Shown piece after piece: positions 5,038-39,588 of a stretch of DNA of 64,000 nucleotides; position 1 is the stretch's first letter; the number at the start of each line of letters is the position of its first letter. Under the pieces are notes generated by a model. It did no database searches. It saw only the letters and a list, made by a program, of their open reading frames with translations, and was not told where the DNA came from. The translations under genes and the position numbers were made by a program. Source of the stretch: Roseibium aquae (GTDB taxonomy: Bacteria; Pseudomonadota; Alphaproteobacteria; Rhizobiales; Stappiaceae). The stretch covers positions 1 through 64,000 of the forward strand of contig NZ_VXDC01000013.1 of the NCBI RefSeq assembly GCF_008711285.1. Reading direction: 5' to 3'.

Positions 5038-6711
5038 TCAGGGGGCCATCCACAACCGGACCTCGGCTGCGTCGCGCTCGATGATCACATGGTGATTGGC
5101 GAACACACGGTAGGTGTGGCTCCAGTCGCCATCCGGCCAGCGCACCCGGACCTCGGCTCGCTCCGATACACCAAGGCCGAAGTGGAGAAAACCCATCTGA
5201 CCCGAGGCGTGGCCGCCGCCAATCAGGACATCCCGTGTCACGGTCCGGTTGCCAATTTTCACGCTCACTTTTGCGCCAACGGCACGGGTGTTCGGCTGGC
5301 CGGGCTGGCGAAGGTCGATGGCCAGCCAGTTCCCAAGCGGACGGGTCTGGTTGGCATCGCCGCGGCCGACATTCCGGAACAGGCTGACCGGCGCGGACCG
5401 GTTCACCACGATCACGTCGAGAAGGCCGTCGAGATTGAAGTCGGCAAGCCCGGCCCCCCGCCCCCGGCTATCCTTGGCAAGACCTGAGCTATCTCCGACC
5501 TCGACAAACCGTCCGTCCCATTGTCCCAGCAAAAGATTGTCCGGATCAAAGGCCGCGAAATCCGGCATCGCTTCGACATTGCCCTTCGCGATGAACAGGT
5601 CCCAAAGGCTGTCATTGTTGAGATCCTGAAAATCGGCATGCCAGCCGGTGGATGGCCGCAAATCGTCCCCGGTATAGGGCCGATGGGCGGTCACGCCGGT
5701 ATCGAAGGCGATATCCCGGTAGATCGGCAGGGTCTCGTCGGCTTCGTCGTCAAGCATCTGAAGCTTCGTGTCGCCCATGCTCGTCAAGGCATATTCCGGA
5801 AACCCGTCCACGTTCAGATCGATGGAGGCGATGCCCATGCCCCAGATCCTGACCGTCCGCCAGCCATCCGACGCGCGGTAGGGCCGTGGCGGACGGCCGG
5901 CTGGCACGGCCCAGAGCTGTTCTTGCCCATCGCGGTAGTAGTGCCGGTCGTTGGACATTCGCAGCGCCGGTTCGCCGGACCGGTTCCAGTCGGTGAACAG
6001 AATCGACAACGCGCAATAGCCGGGCGACAGCCGAAAGGCCTCCGGGTAACGGGGGGCCAGAGCGCCATTGGGACGGAACAGGAAATTGTCGTGGCAGGTG
6101 CCCCACGGTGCGCCCGGCGCCGAACGGTCCACATAGTTGCCGAAAGCGAGGGTCGGGAAAGTCTCTCCCGTTTCCCAAACGGCTGAAAAGGATGTGGTCC
6201 ATTCCCGGCCGCCGTCAAAACCGAGTGCCCGGTTGGCGATCTCGAACCGGCAGTCCCCCTGGCCCGCGAGCAGAAGGTTTTCACCGAGCCGTAGAACCGC
6301 AAGGTCAAGAATGTCATCGTTGTTGAAATCCAGGGGATAGGCTCCCAGAACCCGCGTCATCTGGCGTTCGGGCACCCCGGTCGTCGTGAGTTCGAAGGTC
6401 AGCGGCCCGCCCGACTCGCTTCGGTTTCGATAGAGACTTGCCCGGTTCTCGCCGCCGGCAAGAAAGATGTCGGGCCGGCGGTCGCCATCGCAATCGAAAA
6501 CGGCGGTGCCGCCGCCGACGAAATACTCCCATGGCCCGTCGTAGCGATGCGCGATGCCTGCGGTTCCGGTTTCGTCCAGGAAGGCGGGCACCGGCGCAAG
6601 TGAGGTTGGTCTCGTGTCGGCTTGGGCGAGGCCCGGGCCGGCGAGGAGCGCGGCGGCCAGCGCCGATCGCCGGAGCCATACGGCGGCAGGTGATACACGG
6701 CACGGTGTCAT
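5038..6711 (-). CDS. Secreted FG-GAP repeat protein with ASPIC/UnbV domain (CRTAC1-like)
   Basis: A predicted exported protein of 557 aa. A signal peptide covers about residues 1-32 (LRRSALAAALLAGPGLAQA). A beta-propeller of FG-GAP/VCBS repeats carries calcium-type loops FDCDGDRRPD (72-81), LDFNNDDILD (127-136), DLNVDGFPE (298-306), DLNNDSLWD (363-371) and DFNLDGLLD (424-432). The C-terminal ASPIC/UnbV domain spans about 460-545 (NWLAIDL ... GGGHASGQMGFLHFGLG ... VRWPDG). The family is extracellular or periplasmic; its biochemical role is generally unknown. It is the last gene of a three-gene operon: its ATG overlaps the stop of the di-haem oxidoreductase by 4 bp. A partnership with that cytochrome is inferred from the overlap. 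Confidence 0.88.
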   Translation of the reverse strand: MTPCRVSPAAVWLRRSALAAALLAGPGLAQADTRPTSLAPVPAFLDETGTAGIAHRYDGPWEYFVGGGTAVFDCDGDRRPDIFLAGGENRASLYRNRSESGGPLTFELTTTGVPERQMTRVLGAYPLDFNNDDILDLAVLRLGENLLLAGQGDCRFEIANRALGFDGGREWTTSFSAVWETGETFPTLAFGNYVDRSAPGAPWGTCHDNFLFRPNGALAPRYPEAFRLSPGYCALSILFTDWNRSGEPALRMSNDRHYYRDGQEQLWAVPAGRPPRPYRASDGWRTVRIWGMGIASIDLNVDGFPEYALTSMGDTKLQMLDDEADETLPIYRDIAFDTGVTAHRPYTGDDLRPSTGWHADFQDLNNDSLWDLFIAKGNVEAMPDFAAFDPDNLLLGQWDGRFVEVGDSSGLAKDSRGRGAGLADFNLDGLLDVIVVNRSAPVSLFRNVGRGDANQTRPLGNWLAIDLRQPGQPNTRAVGAKVSVKIGNRTVTRDVLIGGGHASGQMGFLHFGLGVSERAEVRVRWPDGDWSHTYRVFANHHVIIERDAAEVRLWMAP

Positions 6712-31965: not shown

Positions 31966-33435
31966 ATGTTTGCATCGGCCGAATTGCCCCAGAAACTGGA
32001 CAGGAAAACGTTCAAGGCCCTTGAGACGCAGATCCGCGAAGAGCTTCTGTCGGCGCAATTGGCAATGATCGAAAAGAAAAGCTTTGCCACGCTCATCCTG
32101 GTTGATGGACTGGACGGGGCGGGCAAGGGCGAATCCATCGCGCGGCTCTATGCCTGGATGGACGCCCGGCATCTTGTTTGCAATGCCTATGGCGAGATGA
32201 TGGATGAGGCGAAACTCCGTCCTCCGTTATGGCGGTATTGGCGGGATCTTCCCGAGCGCGGGGAAACGGCGATTGTTTTCGGCAGTTGGTACCAGACCCT
32301 GCTCAAGCGCAGGATCTACGAAGAGATTGATGACGCCGAGTTCTCTCTGGAACTGAAACGGATCCGCCGGTTCGAGGAAATGCTGACAGATGAAAAGATC
32401 CTGGTCTTGAAGTTCTGGTACGTGTTGCCGAAAGAGGATCAGGAGCGCCGGCTGAAGAAGATCGAGCAAAAAAAGAGCAAGGCCCGCCATGTGCTGTCGG
32501 ACTGGGCCACATTGAAAAACCATGAGATTGCATCCCAGGTGGGTGAGAAGATCATTCTCGAAACCAGCACCGGACAAGCCCCCTGGTTTGTCATTCCCTC
32601 CCAGGATGCCGACTATCGGGATGCGGCGCTGGGCCAAACGGTGTCCCGCGCGATCCAATTGAAGTTGGCGGATGGGGAGCCGAGGAATGTGGCCGCACCG
32701 CCGATCGTCGGCGGAGTGGAGCACAGGTCTGCCGTGGATGCGATCGATCTGTCCGCGCGGATTGAAAAGGCCGACTACAAGGCGCAACTGGACAGTCTGC
32801 AGGAAAAATTGTCGGATCTTTCCGACAGCAAGGCGTTTTCCAAACGCGGAATGATCCTCGTTTTCCAGGGAAACGACGCCGCCGGAAAGGGCGGCGCGAT
32901 ACGCCGGGTCATTCGCCCGCTCGATCCGCGCATCTACAAGGTGCACCCGATTTCCGCGCCATCCGACGAAGAAAAGGCCCGGCCCTATCTCTGGCGGTTT
33001 TGGCGCCGGATTCCCCGGCGCGGACATATCGCGATTTTTGACCGGTCCTGGTACGAACGCGTCCTTGTCGAACGCGTCGAAGGTTATGCCGGGCATGAAG
33101 ACTGGTTGCGGGCCTACAATGAAATCAACGAATTCGAGGAAGAACTGGCCGGGTTTGGATACATCATTTGCAAATTCTGGCTGGCGATCAGCGAAGGCGA
33201 GCAACTGACCCGGTTCAAGGCGCGCGAAGAAACCGCCTACAAGCAGTACAAGATCACCGACGAAGACTGGCGCAACCGTCTGAAATGGGACCAATACGCC
33301 ATCGCGGCCGGGGACATGGTCGACCGCACCTCCACCCACTACGCGCCATGGACGCTCATTTCATCCGAGGACAAGCGTCACGCGCGCATCGAGGTTCTCA
33401 AGACGATCTGCGCGCGGCTTGACCTGGAGCTCTAA
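31966..33435 (+). CDS. pap: Polyphosphate:AMP phosphotransferase (tandem PPK2 domains)
   Basis: A 489-aa protein with two PPK2 domains in tandem (class II PPK2), which uses polyphosphate to phosphorylate AMP to ADP. The C-terminal half has intact Walker A GNDAAGKGG (302-310) and FDRSWYERVLVERVEG (358-373). The N-terminal half keeps GLDGAGKGE (48-56) but its second motif is degenerate (FGSWYQTLL, near 105), in line with the known inactive first half of such enzymes. The start at 31966 has GGAAAGGGAT upstream; earlier in-frame starts lack a site. It is a single-gene unit, convergent with the aminotransferase, which it overlaps by 4 bp. Confidence 0.93.
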   Translation: MFASAELPQKLDRKTFKALETQIREELLSAQLAMIEKKSFATLILVDGLDGAGKGESIARLYAWMDARHLVCNAYGEMMDEAKLRPPLWRYWRDLPERGETAIVFGSWYQTLLKRRIYEEIDDAEFSLELKRIRRFEEMLTDEKILVLKFWYVLPKEDQERRLKKIEQKKSKARHVLSDWATLKNHEIASQVGEKIILETSTGQAPWFVIPSQDADYRDAALGQTVSRAIQLKLADGEPRNVAAPPIVGGVEHRSAVDAIDLSARIEKADYKAQLDSLQEKLSDLSDSKAFSKRGMILVFQGNDAAGKGGAIRRVIRPLDPRIYKVHPISAPSDEEKARPYLWRFWRRIPRRGHIAIFDRSWYERVLVERVEGYAGHEDWLRAYNEINEFEEELAGFGYIICKFWLAISEGEQLTRFKAREETAYKQYKITDEDWRNRLKWDQYAIAAGDMVDRTSTHYAPWTLISSEDKRHARIEVLKTICARLDLEL

Positions 33436-34616
33436 AGAGCCGCCGCGAGATAGTCCTGAGCGGCAACAATGCCGCCACTTGTTCCGGTTTTTCCCAGCTT
33501 GGCCAAACCAAGTTCAATGGCGGACAGTGTGCCCAGCAGCATCACGGCATTCACATGCCCCATATGGCCGATCCGGAAACCCTGCCCGACCATTTCACCG
33601 ATCGTGCCGCCGATGGTCACGCCGCACACATCATGGGTGAAATTGCGCAGACCTTCCACTTCCCAGCCGGTGGTGCGCACGACCGTGACGCTGTTCGCCC
33701 GGGCGCGTGGGTCGACGATGTTGAACTCGACCGCGCCGGCTTTCTCCCAGACGGCCACGGCCCGCCGGCTTGCTTCGGCCAGAAGGGCATGCCGGTGCCA
33801 GACCCGTTCGAGACCTTCGTCAAAGATGAGATCAAGGGCGGCCTTGAAACCAAAAAGCAGGTGTTCCGGCGGCGTCCCGCAGTATTTTTGATAGTGAATG
33901 GGCCCATCCCGGAAGGACCAGTCCATATAGTGCGTGCGCAGGTCTGCGGTCAGGTGCGCCTTTCGCGCCCGTTCGCCGCCGGCGACGAAGGACAGGCCCG
34001 GCGGGCACATCAGACCTTTTTGCGACCCGGTCAGTGCAACATCCACGCCCCAGTCGTCCATGTGGAAGGGCACGCAGCCCAGCGAGGCGATCGTGTCAAC
34101 CATGAAAAGGGCCGGATGGCTGGCCGCGTCGATCGCCTTGCGCAGCGCCGCAATGTCATTCCACACGCCGGATGCCGTATCGACCTGGACGACCAGGATG
34201 GCCTTGATCTTGTGGCCCTTGTCGGCCCGTAACTTGTCTTCCAGAGCCGACGGATCGACCGGCTCCCGCCAGCTGCCGGGAAGCGTGTCGAGGTTCAAGC
34301 CCATCATGCCCGCCGCCCGACCCCAACCGGAGGCGAAGAGACCCGATTCCAGCACGAGAATCCGGTCGCCGCGGCTCAATGTGTTCGAGAGTGCGGCATC
34401 CCAGGCGCCATGGCCGTTCGCGGCGTAGATATACGGCGGGTACCCGGTCTTGAAGAGCCTCTTCAGACCGGCAAGACAGGCATCGGTCGTCTCGACCAAA
34501 GGGCCCTCGTAAATATCGATCGCTGGCCGGTGCATCGCCCGCAAGACCGCATCCGGAACGTTTGTCGGTCCCGGGATCATCAAGAATTCCTTGCCTTGGC
34601 GAAGAGTGGTTCCCAT
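33432..34616 (-). CDS. Class V aminotransferase, alanine/serine/aspartate-glyoxylate type
   Basis: A 394-aa PLP enzyme. The N-terminal IPGPTNVPDAVLRAM, the cofactor region ANGHGAWDAALSNTLSRGD, FMVDTIASLG (PLP-interacting Asp) and VALTGSQKGLMCPPG (Schiff-base Lys) all fit alanine- or serine-glyoxylate aminotransferases. The C-terminal FRIGHMGHVN is also typical. The exact amino donor is not predictable; BhcA-type aspartate-glyoxylate enzymes are related. No pathway partners lie beside it. Confidence 0.9.
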   Translation of the reverse strand: MGTTLRQGKEFLMIPGPTNVPDAVLRAMHRPAIDIYEGPLVETTDACLAGLKRLFKTGYPPYIYAANGHGAWDAALSNTLSRGDRILVLESGLFASGWGRAAGMMGLNLDTLPGSWREPVDPSALEDKLRADKGHKIKAILVVQVDTASGVWNDIAALRKAIDAASHPALFMVDTIASLGCVPFHMDDWGVDVALTGSQKGLMCPPGLSFVAGGERARKAHLTADLRTHYMDWSFRDGPIHYQKYCGTPPEHLLFGFKAALDLIFDEGLERVWHRHALLAEASRRAVAVWEKAGAVEFNIVDPRARANSVTVVRTTGWEVEGLRNFTHDVCGVTIGGTIGEMVGQGFRIGHMGHVNAVMLLGTLSAIELGLAKLGKTGTSGGIVAAQDYLAAAL

Positions 34617-34643
34617 CGGTGTTGTCCTCCTTCAGGCAGCTTC

Positions 34644-34706
34644 TAGAGCATCTCCTGACAAGATTGAATCACTTTGCGATCCGTTATGTCAGGAATCGAT
34701 GCTCTA
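34644..34706. repeat. TAGAGCATC intergenic palindromic repeat
   Basis: Arms TAGAGCATC-TCCTGACA and the complement of TAGAGCATC-GAT-TCCTGACA match over 17 bp apart from a three-base bulge, around a 26-base centre. Palindromes with TAGAGCAT ends are dispersed repeats typical of Hyphomicrobiales. Only this copy is seen in the window. Confidence 0.75.
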
Positions 34707-34713
34707 ACACTCT

Positions 34714-34731
34714 AAAATTGCGAGCAATTTT
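34714..34731. promoter_or_regulatory. Dyad AAAATTGC-GA-GCAATTTT
   Basis: A perfect 8-bp inverted repeat with a two-base centre, just beside the palindromic repeat and about 100 bp upstream of the aminotransferase start. It is a possible operator for the aminotransferase. Confidence 0.35.
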
Positions 34732-34990
34732 CCCCGATCAGATTGGAGCGTGCCGCTTCACCCCGTGGCGTCCTCTGGTGCCTGACTTGTGGTTAACCTG
34801 TAAGCGCCATTTGAGAAACAGGCGGATTGCCCTAAGAGCCGAAGGGAGCGCAAAAACCGGCTGGCCAGGGGAACGGAGCCATCGAAGCCGTCGATCCAGG
34901 GATTTCACGCGTCTGTTTCCGAATTGTCTTGTTTCCGTAGAGTAAAGAAATCAAACTGGAGACCCGACGGATTGTGTGTGAGGCTTTGAA

Positions 34991-36019
34991 ATGATCCGCG
35001 TTGAAAAGGGCGATGGTCCGCTGATCCTGTGTTTGCCGCGAGCCGGGACCGAGATACATCCTTCGATCCTGCCACGTTTGAGCGCAACGGGCCGCCTTCA
35101 GACCGATGTGTCCTGGCGATTGGAAACAGTGCTGGACCTTGCCAGGGAACTGGATGCCACGGTCGTCCGCTCGACCGTGTCCCATTATGTCGTGGACCCG
35201 GACCAGGATCCTTCGCCCTTCCGGGCAACGCGCGCCACGGACACCGCCCTTTGCCCTGTAGTCACGCTCGACAATAAGCCGATCTACAAACCGGACGAAC
35301 AGCCCGGCCCGACGGAAATCGAGCAGCGTTTGATCTTGTTTCACAGCCCCTTTCACGACGCGCTGTGCCGGGAAATCGAGCGGCTTTCCGCCCGCCACGG
35401 CAAGCTGATCCTGTTGGATTGCCAGTCGGCCCGGTCCCGGATCAAGGGATTTTGCGACCGCGGCCTGCCCATCATCAGCCTGGGAACCGGTGGTGGGAAC
35501 TCCTGCGACCCGGAAATCAAGTCGCTTTTGGCCGGGGTTCTGGCCGAGACGGGGGGGTATTCCGTCGGTGTGGACGATGTTTTCAAAGGTGGTTTCATCA
35601 CCCGCAGTTACGGGCGCCCGGAAGCCGGTTTGCACGCCCTGACAATGGTCGTGGCGCAACGCGCCTACCTGCGGCACGAAACGCCGCCGTTCGAACCGGA
35701 CAAGCTTCGGCTGGGCCGGTTGAAAACGGCACTTCGCGATGCGCTCCTGAGACTGGGCGATTGGGCGGCTCCTGGATATACCGACAGCCGCCAAAACGCG
35801 CTGGCTGCGGTCACGGGTGGGCAGGACGTAACGGGGCTGTCAGCGGCCGCCCGCTTCCGGCCGCCGGTCCATAAATCGCTCTCCGAGTCCTTGCCGAACC
35901 CGGTAGCCCGGCCCGTTCGGGTCGAGGATCTGGTTACCCATCCGCGGCCGGGTTTGAGCAAGCCCGGCTCCATCACAGATACGGGCCTGTTACCGTCTCA
36001 CGTTTTGGTTGCCGAGTAG
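34991..36019 (+). CDS. Degenerate N-formylglutamate amidohydrolase (HutG)-like protein with C-terminal extension
   Basis: A 342-aa protein. Residues 1-256 follow the HutG (N-formylglutamate deformylase) family from end to end, e.g. GFCDRGLPIISLGTGGG and KGGFITRSYGRPEAGLHAL. The usual HutG key residues are replaced: PHxGT is PRAGT (16-20), DTDWH is TDVSW, SRYVVDLNRP is SHYVVDPDQDP, DAHSIRS is DCQSARS (143-149), and ITRHYG is ITRSYG. The zinc and substrate ligands are therefore largely lost, and hydrolase activity is doubtful. An 86-residue tail (257-342), rich in Arg, Pro and Ser, has no known domain. No other hut genes are adjacent. It may be a non-enzymatic binding protein; its function is unknown. 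Confidence 0.75.
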   Translation: MIRVEKGDGPLILCLPRAGTEIHPSILPRLSATGRLQTDVSWRLETVLDLARELDATVVRSTVSHYVVDPDQDPSPFRATRATDTALCPVVTLDNKPIYKPDEQPGPTEIEQRLILFHSPFHDALCREIERLSARHGKLILLDCQSARSRIKGFCDRGLPIISLGTGGGNSCDPEIKSLLAGVLAETGGYSVGVDDVFKGGFITRSYGRPEAGLHALTMVVAQRAYLRHETPPFEPDKLRLGRLKTALRDALLRLGDWAAPGYTDSRQNALAAVTGGQDVTGLSAAARFRPPVHKSLSESLPNPVARPVRVEDLVTHPRPGLSKPGSITDTGLLPSHVLVAE

Positions 36020-36055
36020 TGTGCGGATATTTCTGCCGGAACCGGACAGGCGGTG

Positions 36056-37237
36056 TTAGACCACGTTCCGCTCGACGAGCGGCCTGTTTCTGGCAAGCCG
36101 TTCAATGCCGAGCGGGGACAGATCCAGCGTCTGGTACGCACCCGTTGCGATGAGTTCGGACAGCCCGCGCCCGATTGCGGGGGCTTGCTGCAGGCCGTGG
36201 CCCGAGAAACCGAGCGCGAGATAAAACCCCTCGATCCCGGGAACAGAGCCGACAAAAGCGTTGTGGTCGAACAGATTCATGTCGTAGCTGCCGGCCCATG
36301 CCGCGCCTGGTTTGATGGCTTCGAAGGCGGGAACCCGCGCGGCCAGCGTGGGCCAGATATGCTCTTCGAACAGCGTATGGTCGACATCGAAATCGTCGCA
36401 ATCGGGATCTTGATCCGGCGGGGGTGCCGATCCGCAGATGAACCCTGTCCCCTCCGGCCGGACATAGGTTCCCGTCGGATCGATGAGGAGGGGAAACCCG
36501 TCCAGCTTTTCCCGGCATTCGAAGGTGAACACACACCGCTTTCGGCTGTGGACGGGAAGGTCCAAGCCGGCTTGCCGGCACAGGTTTGCGCCACCGGACG
36601 CTCCTGCGGTGTTCACCACGACCGGACTTGTGATCGCTGCGCCGTTGGAAAGGGCGACTTGCCAGCCATTGCCCGACCGTGTCAGGCGGTCCGCTCTGGC
36701 CGCAACATAGTCCACCCCGAGGGCACGGGCCTTTTTGCGGAACGCCTGTAGCAGGCCATAGCCATCGAACCACCCTTCGCCGGTCAACCCGTGGCAGCCG
36801 GCCGATAGATCCCGCGTTTCCAGCCAGGGAAATTTGTCCGCAAGGCCGGCTGGATCGTAAAAGCCGATATCCGCGCCGAGCTTGGTCTGGAGTGCGTGAT
36901 TTTCGCGAAGGATCGGCTCCTTGTCCGGAGTTGCCAGGAACAGGTAGCCACCTTCATGCAGATCGATTGCCGGTTTTTCGCCCTCCACCGCGAGCGCTTC
37001 CCCGATCCGGCGCAGGAAATCTATGCCGAACAGGGAAATCTCGATGTTGATCGCGCTGGAGAATTGTTGGCGGATGGACGCGGCGGATCGGGCGGAGGCG
37101 CAAGTCTGGTAGGAAGGATCGGCCTCGACCACGACGATACGGCCGGAAAAATCCGGCCGCTGGGCCAGTTGACAGGCCACGGACGATCCCATGACGGCCC
37201 CGCCGACAATCACAACGTCTGCAGTGTGGTGCGCCAT
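36056..37237 (-). CDS. FAD-dependent oxidoreductase, DAO family
   Basis: A 393-aa flavoprotein of the D-amino-acid oxidase/sarcosine oxidase superfamily. The N-terminal Rossmann motif DVVIVGGAVMGSSVACQLAQR binds FAD, with the acidic end VVVEADPSYQTCASARSAASIRQQF. The C-terminal block GFYLALGFSGHGLQQAPAIGRGLSELI completes the FAD site. There is no signal peptide. The substrate is probably a secondary or N-methyl amine or amino acid; nothing nearby specifies it. Confidence 0.88.
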   Translation of the reverse strand: MAHHTADVVIVGGAVMGSSVACQLAQRPDFSGRIVVVEADPSYQTCASARSAASIRQQFSSAINIEISLFGIDFLRRIGEALAVEGEKPAIDLHEGGYLFLATPDKEPILRENHALQTKLGADIGFYDPAGLADKFPWLETRDLSAGCHGLTGEGWFDGYGLLQAFRKKARALGVDYVAARADRLTRSGNGWQVALSNGAAITSPVVVNTAGASGGANLCRQAGLDLPVHSRKRCVFTFECREKLDGFPLLIDPTGTYVRPEGTGFICGSAPPPDQDPDCDDFDVDHTLFEEHIWPTLAARVPAFEAIKPGAAWAGSYDMNLFDHNAFVGSVPGIEGFYLALGFSGHGLQQAPAIGRGLSELIATGAYQTLDLSPLGIERLARNRPLVERNVV

Positions 37238-37265
37238 GGGTTGGTCCGTTCAGACTGTTGAAGTC

Positions 37266-38483
37266 TCAGAAGAACGCCTGCAATCCGGTCTGTGCCCGGC
37301 CGAGGATCAGCGCGTGAACATCGTGCGTGCCCTCGTAGGTGTTGACGGTTTCCAGGTTCTGAGCATGACGCATCACGTGATACTCCTCCTGGATTCCGTT
37401 GCCGCCGTGCATGTCGCGCGCCATCCGGGCAATGTCCAGAGCCTTGCCGCAATTGTTGCGCTTGACGATGGAAATCATCTCGGGTGCCGCTTTTCCGGCA
37501 TCGAACAGACGGCCGACACGCAGCGAGCCCTGCAATCCGAGCGAGATCTCGGTCTGCATGTCGGCGAGTTTCTTTTGGAAAAGCTGGGTTTGGGCCAGCG
37601 GACGGCCGAATTGTTCGCGCTCCAGACCATATTGCCGGGCCCGATGCCAGCAGTCTTCGGCGGCCCCCATAGCGCCCCACGAGATTCCATAGCGGGCACG
37701 GTTCAGGCAGCCGAACGGTCCTTTCAGGCCAGAGACATTGGGAAGCAGGGCATCTTCGCCAACTTCGACATTGTCCATGACGATCTCGCCGGTGATCGAA
37801 GCCCGCAGGGACAATTTGCCGCCTACCTTCGGCGCGGATAGCCCTTTCATGCCCTTGTCGAGCACGAAACCGCGAATGGCACCGTCATGGGCATCCGACT
37901 TGGCCCAAACAACGAACACATCGGCAATCGGCGAGTTCGAGATCCACATCTTGGATCCGGTCAGGCGATAACCGCCGTCGGTCTTGACGGCCCGGGTCCG
38001 CATCCCGGCCGGATCCGAACCGGCATCGGGTTCTGTCAGGCCGAAACAGCCGACATATTCGCCAGAGGCGAGCTTCGGGAGATACTTCTTGCGCTGCTCT
38101 TCGGACCCATAGGCATAGATCGGGTACATCACCAGGGACGACTGGACACTCATCATGGACCGGTAGCCGGAATCCACGCGCTCGACCTCGCGGGCGACCA
38201 AGCCGTAGGCAACATAAGACGCGCCGGCACAGCCGTAGTCTTCCGGCATCGTGACACCGAGCAGGCCGAGCTCGCCCATTTCATTGAAGATCGACCGGTC
38301 GGTCTTCTCCTCGCGGTAAGCCTCGATCACGCGCGGCAGAAGCCGTTCCTGCGCATAGGCCCTCGCGCTCTCCATGATCAGAACTTCGTCTTCATGCAAC
38401 TGATCGCGCAGCATGAAGGGGTCCTGCCAATCGAAGATGCCGCCGCCGGTCGGGGACGATTTCACGTTTGCTGGTGCGTTCAT
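37266..38483 (-). CDS. gcdH: Glutaryl-CoA dehydrogenase
   Basis: A 405-aa acyl-CoA dehydrogenase of the glutaryl-CoA type, which oxidises and decarboxylates glutaryl-CoA to crotonyl-CoA in lysine/tryptophan breakdown. It shows [40 protein letters not shown] and the catalytic Glu region [20 protein letters not shown]. The start at 38483 has AAGGAGAT upstream; an in-frame codon 19 residues earlier lacks a site. A LysR regulator is transcribed divergently from the same control region, the usual arrangement for gcdH. Confidence 0.95.
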
Positions 38484-38553
38484 GTCAGATCTCCTTGGCT
38501 GCGCCGCCGCTGGGGCATGCCGCTTTTTCGCGGCGCTCATGTTGCGCAGTAGC

Positions 38554-38635
38554 TATTCCAATATTGCACAGTATCGCAAGTCTCCCGATTGCAATAAAGC
38601 GATCAATGCTCCATGGTTCATGCCAATATGGAATA
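38554..38635. promoter_or_regulatory. Paired inverted repeats in the gcdH-lysR control region
   Basis: TATTCCAATATTG (38554-38566) and CCAATATGGAATA (38623-38635) are inverted copies that differ by one inserted base, 56 bp apart. Shorter TTGC/GCAA dyads lie between. This spacing and the AT-rich arms fit a LysR-type activation region shared by gcdH and the regulator. Confidence 0.5.
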
Positions 38636-38664
38636 AACCGATTTTTTCCAAGGTCCTTTTATCG

Positions 38665-39588
38665 ATGAAACGCGCCTTTGTTCCGCCCGCCGACACACTC
38701 ATCGCGTTCGAGTGCGCGGCGCGGCACGAAAGCTTCACCCGTGCCGCGAAAGAACTCCATCTGACCCAAGGCGCGGTTTCCAAGCAGGTGCGGCATCTGG
38801 AGGACCGTTTGGGCGTTGAACTCTTTCGCCGCGTTCGCCAGCGCATCATTCTGACGGACGCCGGACGGCTCTATTTGCACGATATCCGGGGCGCTCTGGA
38901 GGATTTGACCGCGGCGACCCGGCAAGTCATGTCCTATGCCGGCAGTCAGGACGTTTTGAATCTTGCCGTCCTGCCGACGTTCGGTACACGTTGGCTCGCG
39001 CCGCGTCTGTCCCGCTTTATGCGGATCTATCCGCATGCCGGCCTCAATATCAGCGTGCGCCTGCAGCCCTTCGATTTCGAGACCGAGCCCTTCGACGGCG
39101 CGATCCATCATGGCGATCCGGTCTGGGCGGGAGCGATTGCCGATCCGTTGTTTCCAGAGGATGTCATTCCGGTTTCCTCGCCTGTTTTCAGGGACCGGCA
39201 TGGCATCGAAGCGCCTGCCGACCTTGCCCGGGTCCCGCGGCTTCAACTCGCCACGCGGCCAAATGCCTGGAAGCAGTGGTTCGATGCCCTGGAGATATCG
39301 GCCGCCACGGCGTTCCAGGGAGTTCGGTTCGAGCAATTCGTCATGATCTCGGAAGCGGCAATTCATCACTTGGGAGCCGCGCTCGTGCCGCGCTTTTTTG
39401 TCGAGGACGAGCTTGCCTCCGGCCGCTTGGTCCAGCTTTTCGACCTTCCGTTGACCCAAAGCTCGGCCTATCATTTCGTTTATCCCGAGACCCGCACGCT
39501 CCGGCCGGTTGTCTCGGCGTTCCGGACTTGGCTCATCGAAGAAGCCCGGGCTGAGCGCACCGGGGAAGATCCGCTCCTGCCAGGCTAG
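38665..39588 (+). CDS. LysR-family transcriptional regulator, probable gcdH activator
   Basis: A 307-aa regulator. The helix-turn-helix is in residues about 8-65 (LIAFECAARHESFTRAAKELHLTQGAVSKQVRHLEDRLG), followed by a periplasmic-binding-protein-like effector domain (VLNLAVLPTFGTRWLAPRL ...), of the GcvA-like subgroup. The start at 38665 gives the standard LysR N-terminus; longer in-frame starts overlap gcdH and its promoter. Divergence from gcdH suggests it responds to glutarate or glutaryl-CoA, which is inference. Confidence 0.92.
   Translation: MKRAFVPPADTLIAFECAARHESFTRAAKELHLTQGAVSKQVRHLEDRLGVELFRRVRQRIILTDAGRLYLHDIRGALEDLTAATRQVMSYAGSQDVLNLAVLPTFGTRWLAPRLSRFMRIYPHAGLNISVRLQPFDFETEPFDGAIHHGDPVWAGAIADPLFPEDVIPVSSPVFRDRHGIEAPADLARVPRLQLATRPNAWKQWFDALEISAATAFQGVRFEQFVMISEAAIHHLGAALVPRFFVEDELASGRLVQLFDLPLTQSSAYHFVYPETRTLRPVVSAFRTWLIEEARAERTGEDPLLPG

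Follow-up and report, generated by a model that had tools for sequence, protein, structure and literature searches.

A conserved, presumably non-hydrolytic HutG paralogue of Roseibium with a recurrent C-terminal VAE tip

Introduction

The closest described relative of the protein studied here, which we call pHutG, is the N-formylglutamate deformylase HutG (TIGR02017, PF05013), which belongs to the same family over the full domain. The two differ in that pHutG scores below the HutG cutoff, lacks D41, N71, H145, Q218 and E220 (and, in the species studied here, also H17), lies outside the hut cluster and carries a long tail with a VAE tip. For the active-site plan we used aspartoacylase, an N-acyl-aspartate hydrolase, as an analogy, with a putative mapping of its residues to HutG. 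As given in PMC10998430, its Zn ligands are H21, E24 and H116, its substrate contacts R63, N70, R71, R168 and Y288, and its base E178. A search for N-formylglutamate with HutG and structure gave no HutG structure paper, judging by titles, and we found no paper joining N-formylglutamate amidohydrolase with a pseudoenzyme or with Roseibium. Together with Labrenzia, N-formylglutamate led only to a taxonomy paper, in the available passages of which the term is absent.

The tail of pHutG brings in a second group of described systems. PMC8973945 presents CpdR as a ClpXP adaptor and also lists it among the ClpXP substrates of Caulobacter, in which, according to the same source, ClpXP recognises non-polar C-terminal residues. 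As quoted in PMC9382460, LAA forms the end of the ssrA tag and LVA that of a variant in use. KidO of Caulobacter, described as degraded by ClpXP, is a metabolic-enzyme homologue in the alphaproteobacterial ClpXP network (PMC8973945); it differs from pHutG, whose ClpXP link is putative, in being homologous to an NAD(H)-binding oxidoreductase and not to an FGase. A full-text search found no paper pairing 'N-formylglutamate amidohydrolase' with cpdR, and with ClpX nothing relevant was listed, only a genome re-annotation.

Results

An uninterrupted HutG-like gene outside the hut cluster

The window, a stretch of 64,000 nucleotides from Roseibium aquae, contains the gene and domain below.

34991..36019, + strand: pHutG gene, 342 aa, presumed non-hydrolytic HutG paralogue (ORF and profile matches)
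34991..35770, + strand: FGase/HutG-like domain, residues 1-260 (TIGR02017 match 2-260, Pfam FGase 10-227)

An earlier note on this DNA had described a HutG-like protein whose fold-defining segments align end to end with the family and whose frame is intact, and both statements hold. The frame runs from ATG to stop through 342 codons without interruption, and the Pfam FGase model (PF05013) matches residues 10-227 over profile positions 2-219 of 219 (E 5.1e-45), its 154.7 bits against a gathering score of 28.9 placing pHutG in the FGase family. By the HutG equivalog model TIGR02017 (residues 2-260) pHutG falls outside HutG proper, with 213.9 bits against a cutoff of 278.75; two of its orthologues score 214.3 (L036) and 207.0 bits (L038), and the HutG of the same genome 368.1 bits. 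About 82 residues of pHutG lie beyond the end of this match. AlphaFold, given five sequences each time, returned a mean pLDDT of 36.4 for the whole protein and 36.3 for the domain, and the models are unusable.

The own-genome HutG is 36% identical to pHutG and is clustered with hutU, hutH, hutI and hutF, and the genome (4.40 Mb, 37 contigs) contains further, more distant FGase paralogues. pHutG lies in no hut cluster at any locus examined. Judging by gene content, histidine breakdown can do without the window gene.

Loss of active-site residues

The earlier note had also stated that the HutG motifs are altered at metal- or substrate-binding residues. The alterations are real: PHxGT reads PRAGT, DTDWH reads DVSWR, the D-x-NR stretch reads DPDQ, DCHSIRS reads DCQSARS and TRHYG reads TRSYG. 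The statement fails as a description of the family for PHxGT, because the His of this motif (H17) is kept in 48 of 51 orthologues, R, D and N each replacing it once. PRAGT is thus a change of the window species, which has gone further than its relatives.

We counted a residue as lost when at least 24 of 25 HutG rows keep it, both distant FGase paralogues (L003 and L004) share it and none of the 51 orthologues has it. D41, N71, H145, Q218 and E220 were found in this way; many other positions kept in 24-25 of the 25 HutG rows also differ in the orthologues. The replacements are S (32), A (18) or G (1) for D41, D in all 51 for N71, Q (46), R (2), K (2) or S (1) for H145, and mostly L or V for E220. 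The codons of interest in the window are as follows.

35039..35041, + strand: codon 17, R for the PHxG His; H in 48/51 clade rows
35111..35113, + strand: codon 41, S for the second Asp of DTDWH; lost in 51/51
35201..35203, + strand: codon 71, D for the Asn of the NR motif; D in 51/51
35423..35425, + strand: codon 145, Q for the His of DCHS; lost in 51/51
35648..35650, + strand: codon 220, V for the Glu kept by HutG; lost in 51/51

Hence all four presumed ligands and base (the PHxG His, the second Asp of DTDWH, the DCHS His and Glu 220) are absent from the focal protein, and the last three from all 51 orthologues. On the aspartoacylase analogy, the losses would include two of three metal ligands, the carboxylate-binding Asn and the general base. 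In the six rows from the sister genera g28 and g29, the His at position 43 is retained and D41 and H145 are already absent, which is consistent with D41 and H145 having been lost first.

Conservation and selection across three genera

In a search of 87 genomes of the taxonomic family, all 45 from the genus itself (Roseibium/Labrenzia for the named orthologue loci), all five of g28 and the single one of g29 gave a match at E <=4.2e-65. The best matches in g26, g27, g30 and g31 were at E 1.6e-55 or weaker, and the seven that were read all had HutG motifs. After merging of identical protein rows, the comparison held 51 clade rows (45 from the genus and six others) and 25 HutG rows, the latter being a fetched set and not every HutG of these genomes. 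In a maximum-likelihood tree of the domain, with a midpoint root for drawing only, a branch with 100/100 support divided the 51 distinct orthologues from the 25 HutG rows.

Orthologues that keep the HutG motifs had been named in the earlier note as a sign that this copy is simply decaying. They do not keep them: all 51, from three genera, share the loss of the five residues. No internal stop was seen in the listed pHutG matches of the 45 genus genomes, and the motif LRHE[ST]PPFEPD is present in 42 of 45 genus rows. By the Nei-Gojobori method, with some dS near or above 1, dN/dS was 0.03-0.18 for the domain in 17 close pairs; for the tail it was 0.14-0.85 in the 12 computable Roseibium tails and 0-0.08 in three 17-codon tails of g28. 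As the focal species has no close pair, these values speak for the family. Since orthologues are universal in the genus and its two relatives, share their losses and have a domain dN/dS this low, we conclude that pHutG is kept by selection and is not decaying. The proposal of a non-hydrolytic role rather than decay thus gains support from the shared losses, the 100/100 branch and the purifying selection on the domain, hydrolysis itself being presumed absent.

A DNA pattern of the RHExPPFE type, which is not exhaustive since it missed the pHutG genome G029, matched 13 of 397 genomes of the order; nine of these have pHutG, and the other four loci (G064, G451, G423 and G193) held no relative, the best tblastn E being 0.15. 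An ATGRLQ-type pattern matched 4 of 385 genomes of the class, one of them our own, and the other three loci had no tblastn match at E <=1. No relative was found in viral contigs with A1 or with HutG as the query.

A gene within an apparently split operon

The neighbours of pHutG in the window are metabolic genes and a regulator.

34617..34990, no strand: divergent intergenic region between the aminotransferase gene and pHutG (ORF map and synteny)
33432..34616, - strand: class V aminotransferase, divergent from pHutG in 35/35 loci, 34 of them distinct (profile matches and synteny)
36056..37237, - strand: FAD-dependent (DAO family) oxidoreductase, convergent neighbour, not found adjoining pHutG in 9 loci (profile match and synteny)
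37266..38540, - strand: member of the acyl-CoA dehydrogenase family, from the split operon (the best NCBIfam models all score below their cutoffs; we label it 'glutaryl-CoA dehydrogenase-like')
38413..39588, + strand: LysR-type regulator, best model GcvA just below cutoff, with a mechanical ORF start that overlaps the dehydrogenase (profile match)

Synteny was read for genus genomes with flanks; the 35 loci are 34 distinct ones, as L038 and L091 are the same locus, and the contig of L039 ends just after pHutG. The distance between the aminotransferase gene and pHutG is 253-500 bp in all loci except two, where it reaches 1543 and 2319 bp. Genera g27 and g31 have no pHutG; in nine of their loci the aminotransferase and DAO genes are adjacent, 76-124 bp apart and in one direction, and therefore pHutG looks like an opposite-strand insertion between them; loss of pHutG from the other genera could be an alternative. 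The constant adjacency to the aminotransferase gene may mark a functional pair, and a single ancient insertion that was never undone would give the same adjacency.

In sister genera the dehydrogenase, DAO and aminotransferase genes form a contiguous operon, which in the window (33432-39588) is interrupted by pHutG. Any transcript that read through from the DAO gene into the aminotransferase gene would have pHutG in antisense.

A variable tail with a recurrent C-terminal tip

35771..36016, + strand: variable tail, residues 261-342 (orthologue comparison)
36005..36016, + strand: C-terminal tip LVAE; VAE in 39/51 clade rows (orthologue ends)

A long tail rich in Arg, Pro and Ser had been described for the window protein. 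The long tail is genuine; its composition is not conserved, the net charge being +1 in the window and 0 to -31 in ten other rows computed, and the conserved part is the last 3-6 residues. The proteins of g28 and g29 have 281-282 residues and those of the genus 273-367. VAE stands at the very end of 39 of 45 genus rows, the exceptions being L007, L011, L014, L044, L045 and L090, and of none of the six rows outside the genus. In the 39 rows with VAE, L stands at position -4 in 30 and Q in 7, L at -5 in 30 and P at -6 in 28, and upstream of the tip, from -7 to -40, identity goes down to 0.13-0.59. The last three codons each vary at the third base among these rows, and the constraint therefore acts on the protein. 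By comparison, [VA]AE ends occur in 3 of 428 neighbouring ORFs, a rough figure since these are mechanical calls and many are mutually orthologous, and AE ends in none of the 25 HutG rows. From these sequences we describe the tail as a linker that evolves fast and that ends, in 39 of 45 genus rows, in a fixed VAE. Twelve of the 51 clade rows have no such tip, and whatever maintains the domain can therefore do without it.

We rejected the idea that LxVAE is a tag common to many proteins, since matches were below the reversed-pattern control in all four genomes (2 vs 10 in G000, 7 vs 16 in G002, 6 vs 12 in G021 and 3 vs 12 in G009), as they were for a narrower tip pattern in G000 (2 vs 4). The LxVAE pattern needs Leu or Phe at -5 and also accepts TGG; it misses the pHutG of G000 (VLVAE) and G009 (PLVAE) and counts some matches that are not ends.

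Some tails of the main Roseibium clade, such as those of L010, L016 and L018, share a second short motif, approximately IIPVDPMTL, about 20 residues before the tip.

An intact FGase paralogue beside cpdR with a similar end

On another contig of the own genome (C12, L073:5408-6871), an FGase paralogue (5408-6421) lies head-to-head with a cpdR-like response regulator gene, the product of which we take to be CpdR from its sequence. The papers searched gave no function for this paralogue. Ninety paralogue loci were collected, one of which (L188) gave no match, leaving 89 rows. The 23 order-level rows were hand-picked from lists (11 from the genus, 2 from g28/g29 and 10 from other families), and the other 66 came from the 29 best class loci besides our own and 40 picked of 144 (two of those order-level), the 144 being genomes, out of 240 searched in the class, that matched at E <=1e-35, some perhaps through other FGases. 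The active-site residues are kept in 87-89 of the 89 rows. AAE closes the protein in all 23 order-level rows, and AE does so in 18 of the 66 others (16 AAE, 2 SAE), which is not an unbiased rate because rows were hand-picked or best-scoring.

A CpdR match on the opposite strand lies nearby in 49 of the 89 rows. AE ends are found in 30 of these 49 and in 11 of the 40 without CpdR, that is, without a match at E <=1e-10 within ~3.5 kb; these 11 show that the link between tip and cpdR is loose. Among the 48 paralogue rows without AE, five end in AA, against 10 of 428 in the background (about 1.1 expected), a comparison made post hoc.

Of the 49 CpdR proteins themselves, 35 end in AA and 4 in VA. 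Three of the latter (L149, L167 and L214) end in LLVA and carry the letters of the common pHutG tip minus its Glu. At L143 (G014), CpdR ends in MLAE and not MLAA, and the pHutG of the same genome (row L007) has no VAE tip.

Two FGase families of one genome thus have the same uncommon kind of C-terminal end, a likeness that was spotted post hoc. The ends are similar and not identical, AAE in the paralogue and VAE in pHutG, and the paralogue differs from pHutG in its intact active site and in a shorter stretch before the tip. With its site lost and cpdR adjoining the other paralogue, pHutG is not itself the FGase of this gene pair.

Discussion

Here, we have described a HutG paralogue that is conserved in Roseibium and two sister genera and is presumably non-hydrolytic, a part of our reading that the sequence comparisons support well. 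We propose that pHutG acts as a regulatory pseudoenzyme with a tip that serves for docking or as a degron, with CpdR/ClpXP as the best candidate reader, and we hold this proposal as a whole to be somewhat more probable than its negation. A gene of the HutG/FGase family would have come, on the opposite strand, between the DAO and aminotransferase genes of an operon that related genera still have in one piece. In the ancestor common to Roseibium and the two sister genera, the protein would then have been retained while losing two of its presumed metal ligands, together with the Asn and the Glu presumed to bind the carboxylate and to act as general base; here the shared losses, the clade and the selection are observed, and the absence of hydrolysis is presumed. 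The Roseibium protein carries a variable linker that closes with a fixed VAE, mostly as LVAE or QVAE. As the most likely mechanism, the folded domain would hold a partner or ligand that it does not turn over, and the tethered tip would contact a protein that reads C-termini. CpdR/ClpXP is our best candidate for this reader because the intact FGase paralogue beside cpdR has the same kind of tip (AAE), the single observation from which we infer it, and the ClpXP link is accordingly a lead. Several observations speak against the proposal: the neighbours of pHutG are metabolic genes, the tip is absent in 12 of 51 clade rows (six outside the genus and six inside) and AE in 48 of 66 paralogue rows outside the order, tip and cpdR are only loosely linked, LxVAE ends show no enrichment in other proteins, and the own-genome SspB has another end.

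Decay of a HutG copy whose frame is open by chance is suggested by the focal protein's own changes (H17R and R65H), by its somewhat long branch (0.61, compared with 0.43 and 0.53 in the two nearest rows) and by the very long branch (1.42) of the row of genome G094 (L090). For the pHutG family it is largely contradicted by the stop-free orthologues in 45 of 45 genus genomes, by the low dN/dS of the domain and by clade-fixed residues that differ from HutG, such as D71 and the LRHE[ST]PPFEPD motif, and we regard it as highly improbable. An enzyme that is still active, its old pocket now using a new chemistry that is metal-free or relies on different binding, with the tail as a side feature, has more in its favour. 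D71, which is new in the clade, and D39, D69, R113 and S146, which are common to HutG, are invariant polar residues, H17 is kept in 48 of 51 rows, and a metabolic role would agree with the aminotransferase gene that is divergent from pHutG in 35 of 35 loci. However, no recognised catalytic set is left, three species do without H17 and the position of the presumed base Glu mostly holds L or V, and we consider continued activity unlikely, though it is the strongest of the competing explanations.

Two further explanations would make pHutG a helper of a known protein. As a regulatory or structural partner of HutG, a pseudo-subunit of histidine degradation, it might use its C-terminal Glu to imitate the N-acyl-glutamate substrate. 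Its membership of the same family as HutG would agree with such a role, as would the presence of three or more FGase-family matches in 44 of 45 genus genomes and the chemistry of a C-terminal Glu. Against it, the gene is in no hut cluster at the loci examined, N71D takes away the Asn that should bind the carboxylate, and genomes G094 and G072 keep pHutG without a HutG-level match (best others at E 3.7e-18 and 2.9e-21). This persistence argues against a HutG subunit and is neutral on ClpXP, and we find the HutG partner improbable. The adaptor SspB consists of a folded domain, a linker and a C-terminal ClpX-binding peptide, and pHutG, with its domain, variable linker and fixed C-terminal peptide, matches this architecture. 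Yet the own-genome SspB, the one SspB that was read, ends in EVVSLDAFRKKT, which we take to be ClpX-binding and which is unlike LVAE, so that an SspB-like adaptor is a shade more doubtful still. An SspB-like ClpX-binding motif in pHutG was rejected on this difference, and we found no literature on SspB with ClpX and LRVVK.

A bolder variant of our proposal concerns the Glu itself. In chemical terms, a protein that ends in Glu presents an N-acyl-glutamate, a group shaped like the known substrate of the FGase family. Because the tips minus Glu read AA and LVA, it is conceivable that AAE and LVAE are ClpXP-type signals (AA, LVA) hidden by one Glu, and that the intact FGase would uncap them as a glutamyl carboxypeptidase. 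As pHutG cannot cut itself, it would be a client or competitor, its level reporting FGase activity to the proteolysis network. We offer these Glu-capped degrons as a long shot; if true, they would add a new layer of ClpXP control in Alphaproteobacteria.

pHutG points through its tip to an FGase gene beside the proteolysis adaptor cpdR, which has a conserved AAE end of its own in the order. It also offers a well-sampled case of an enzyme that presumably became a non-enzyme within one bacterial genus and gained a short tail motif, a case in which the gain of a new role can be traced step by step.
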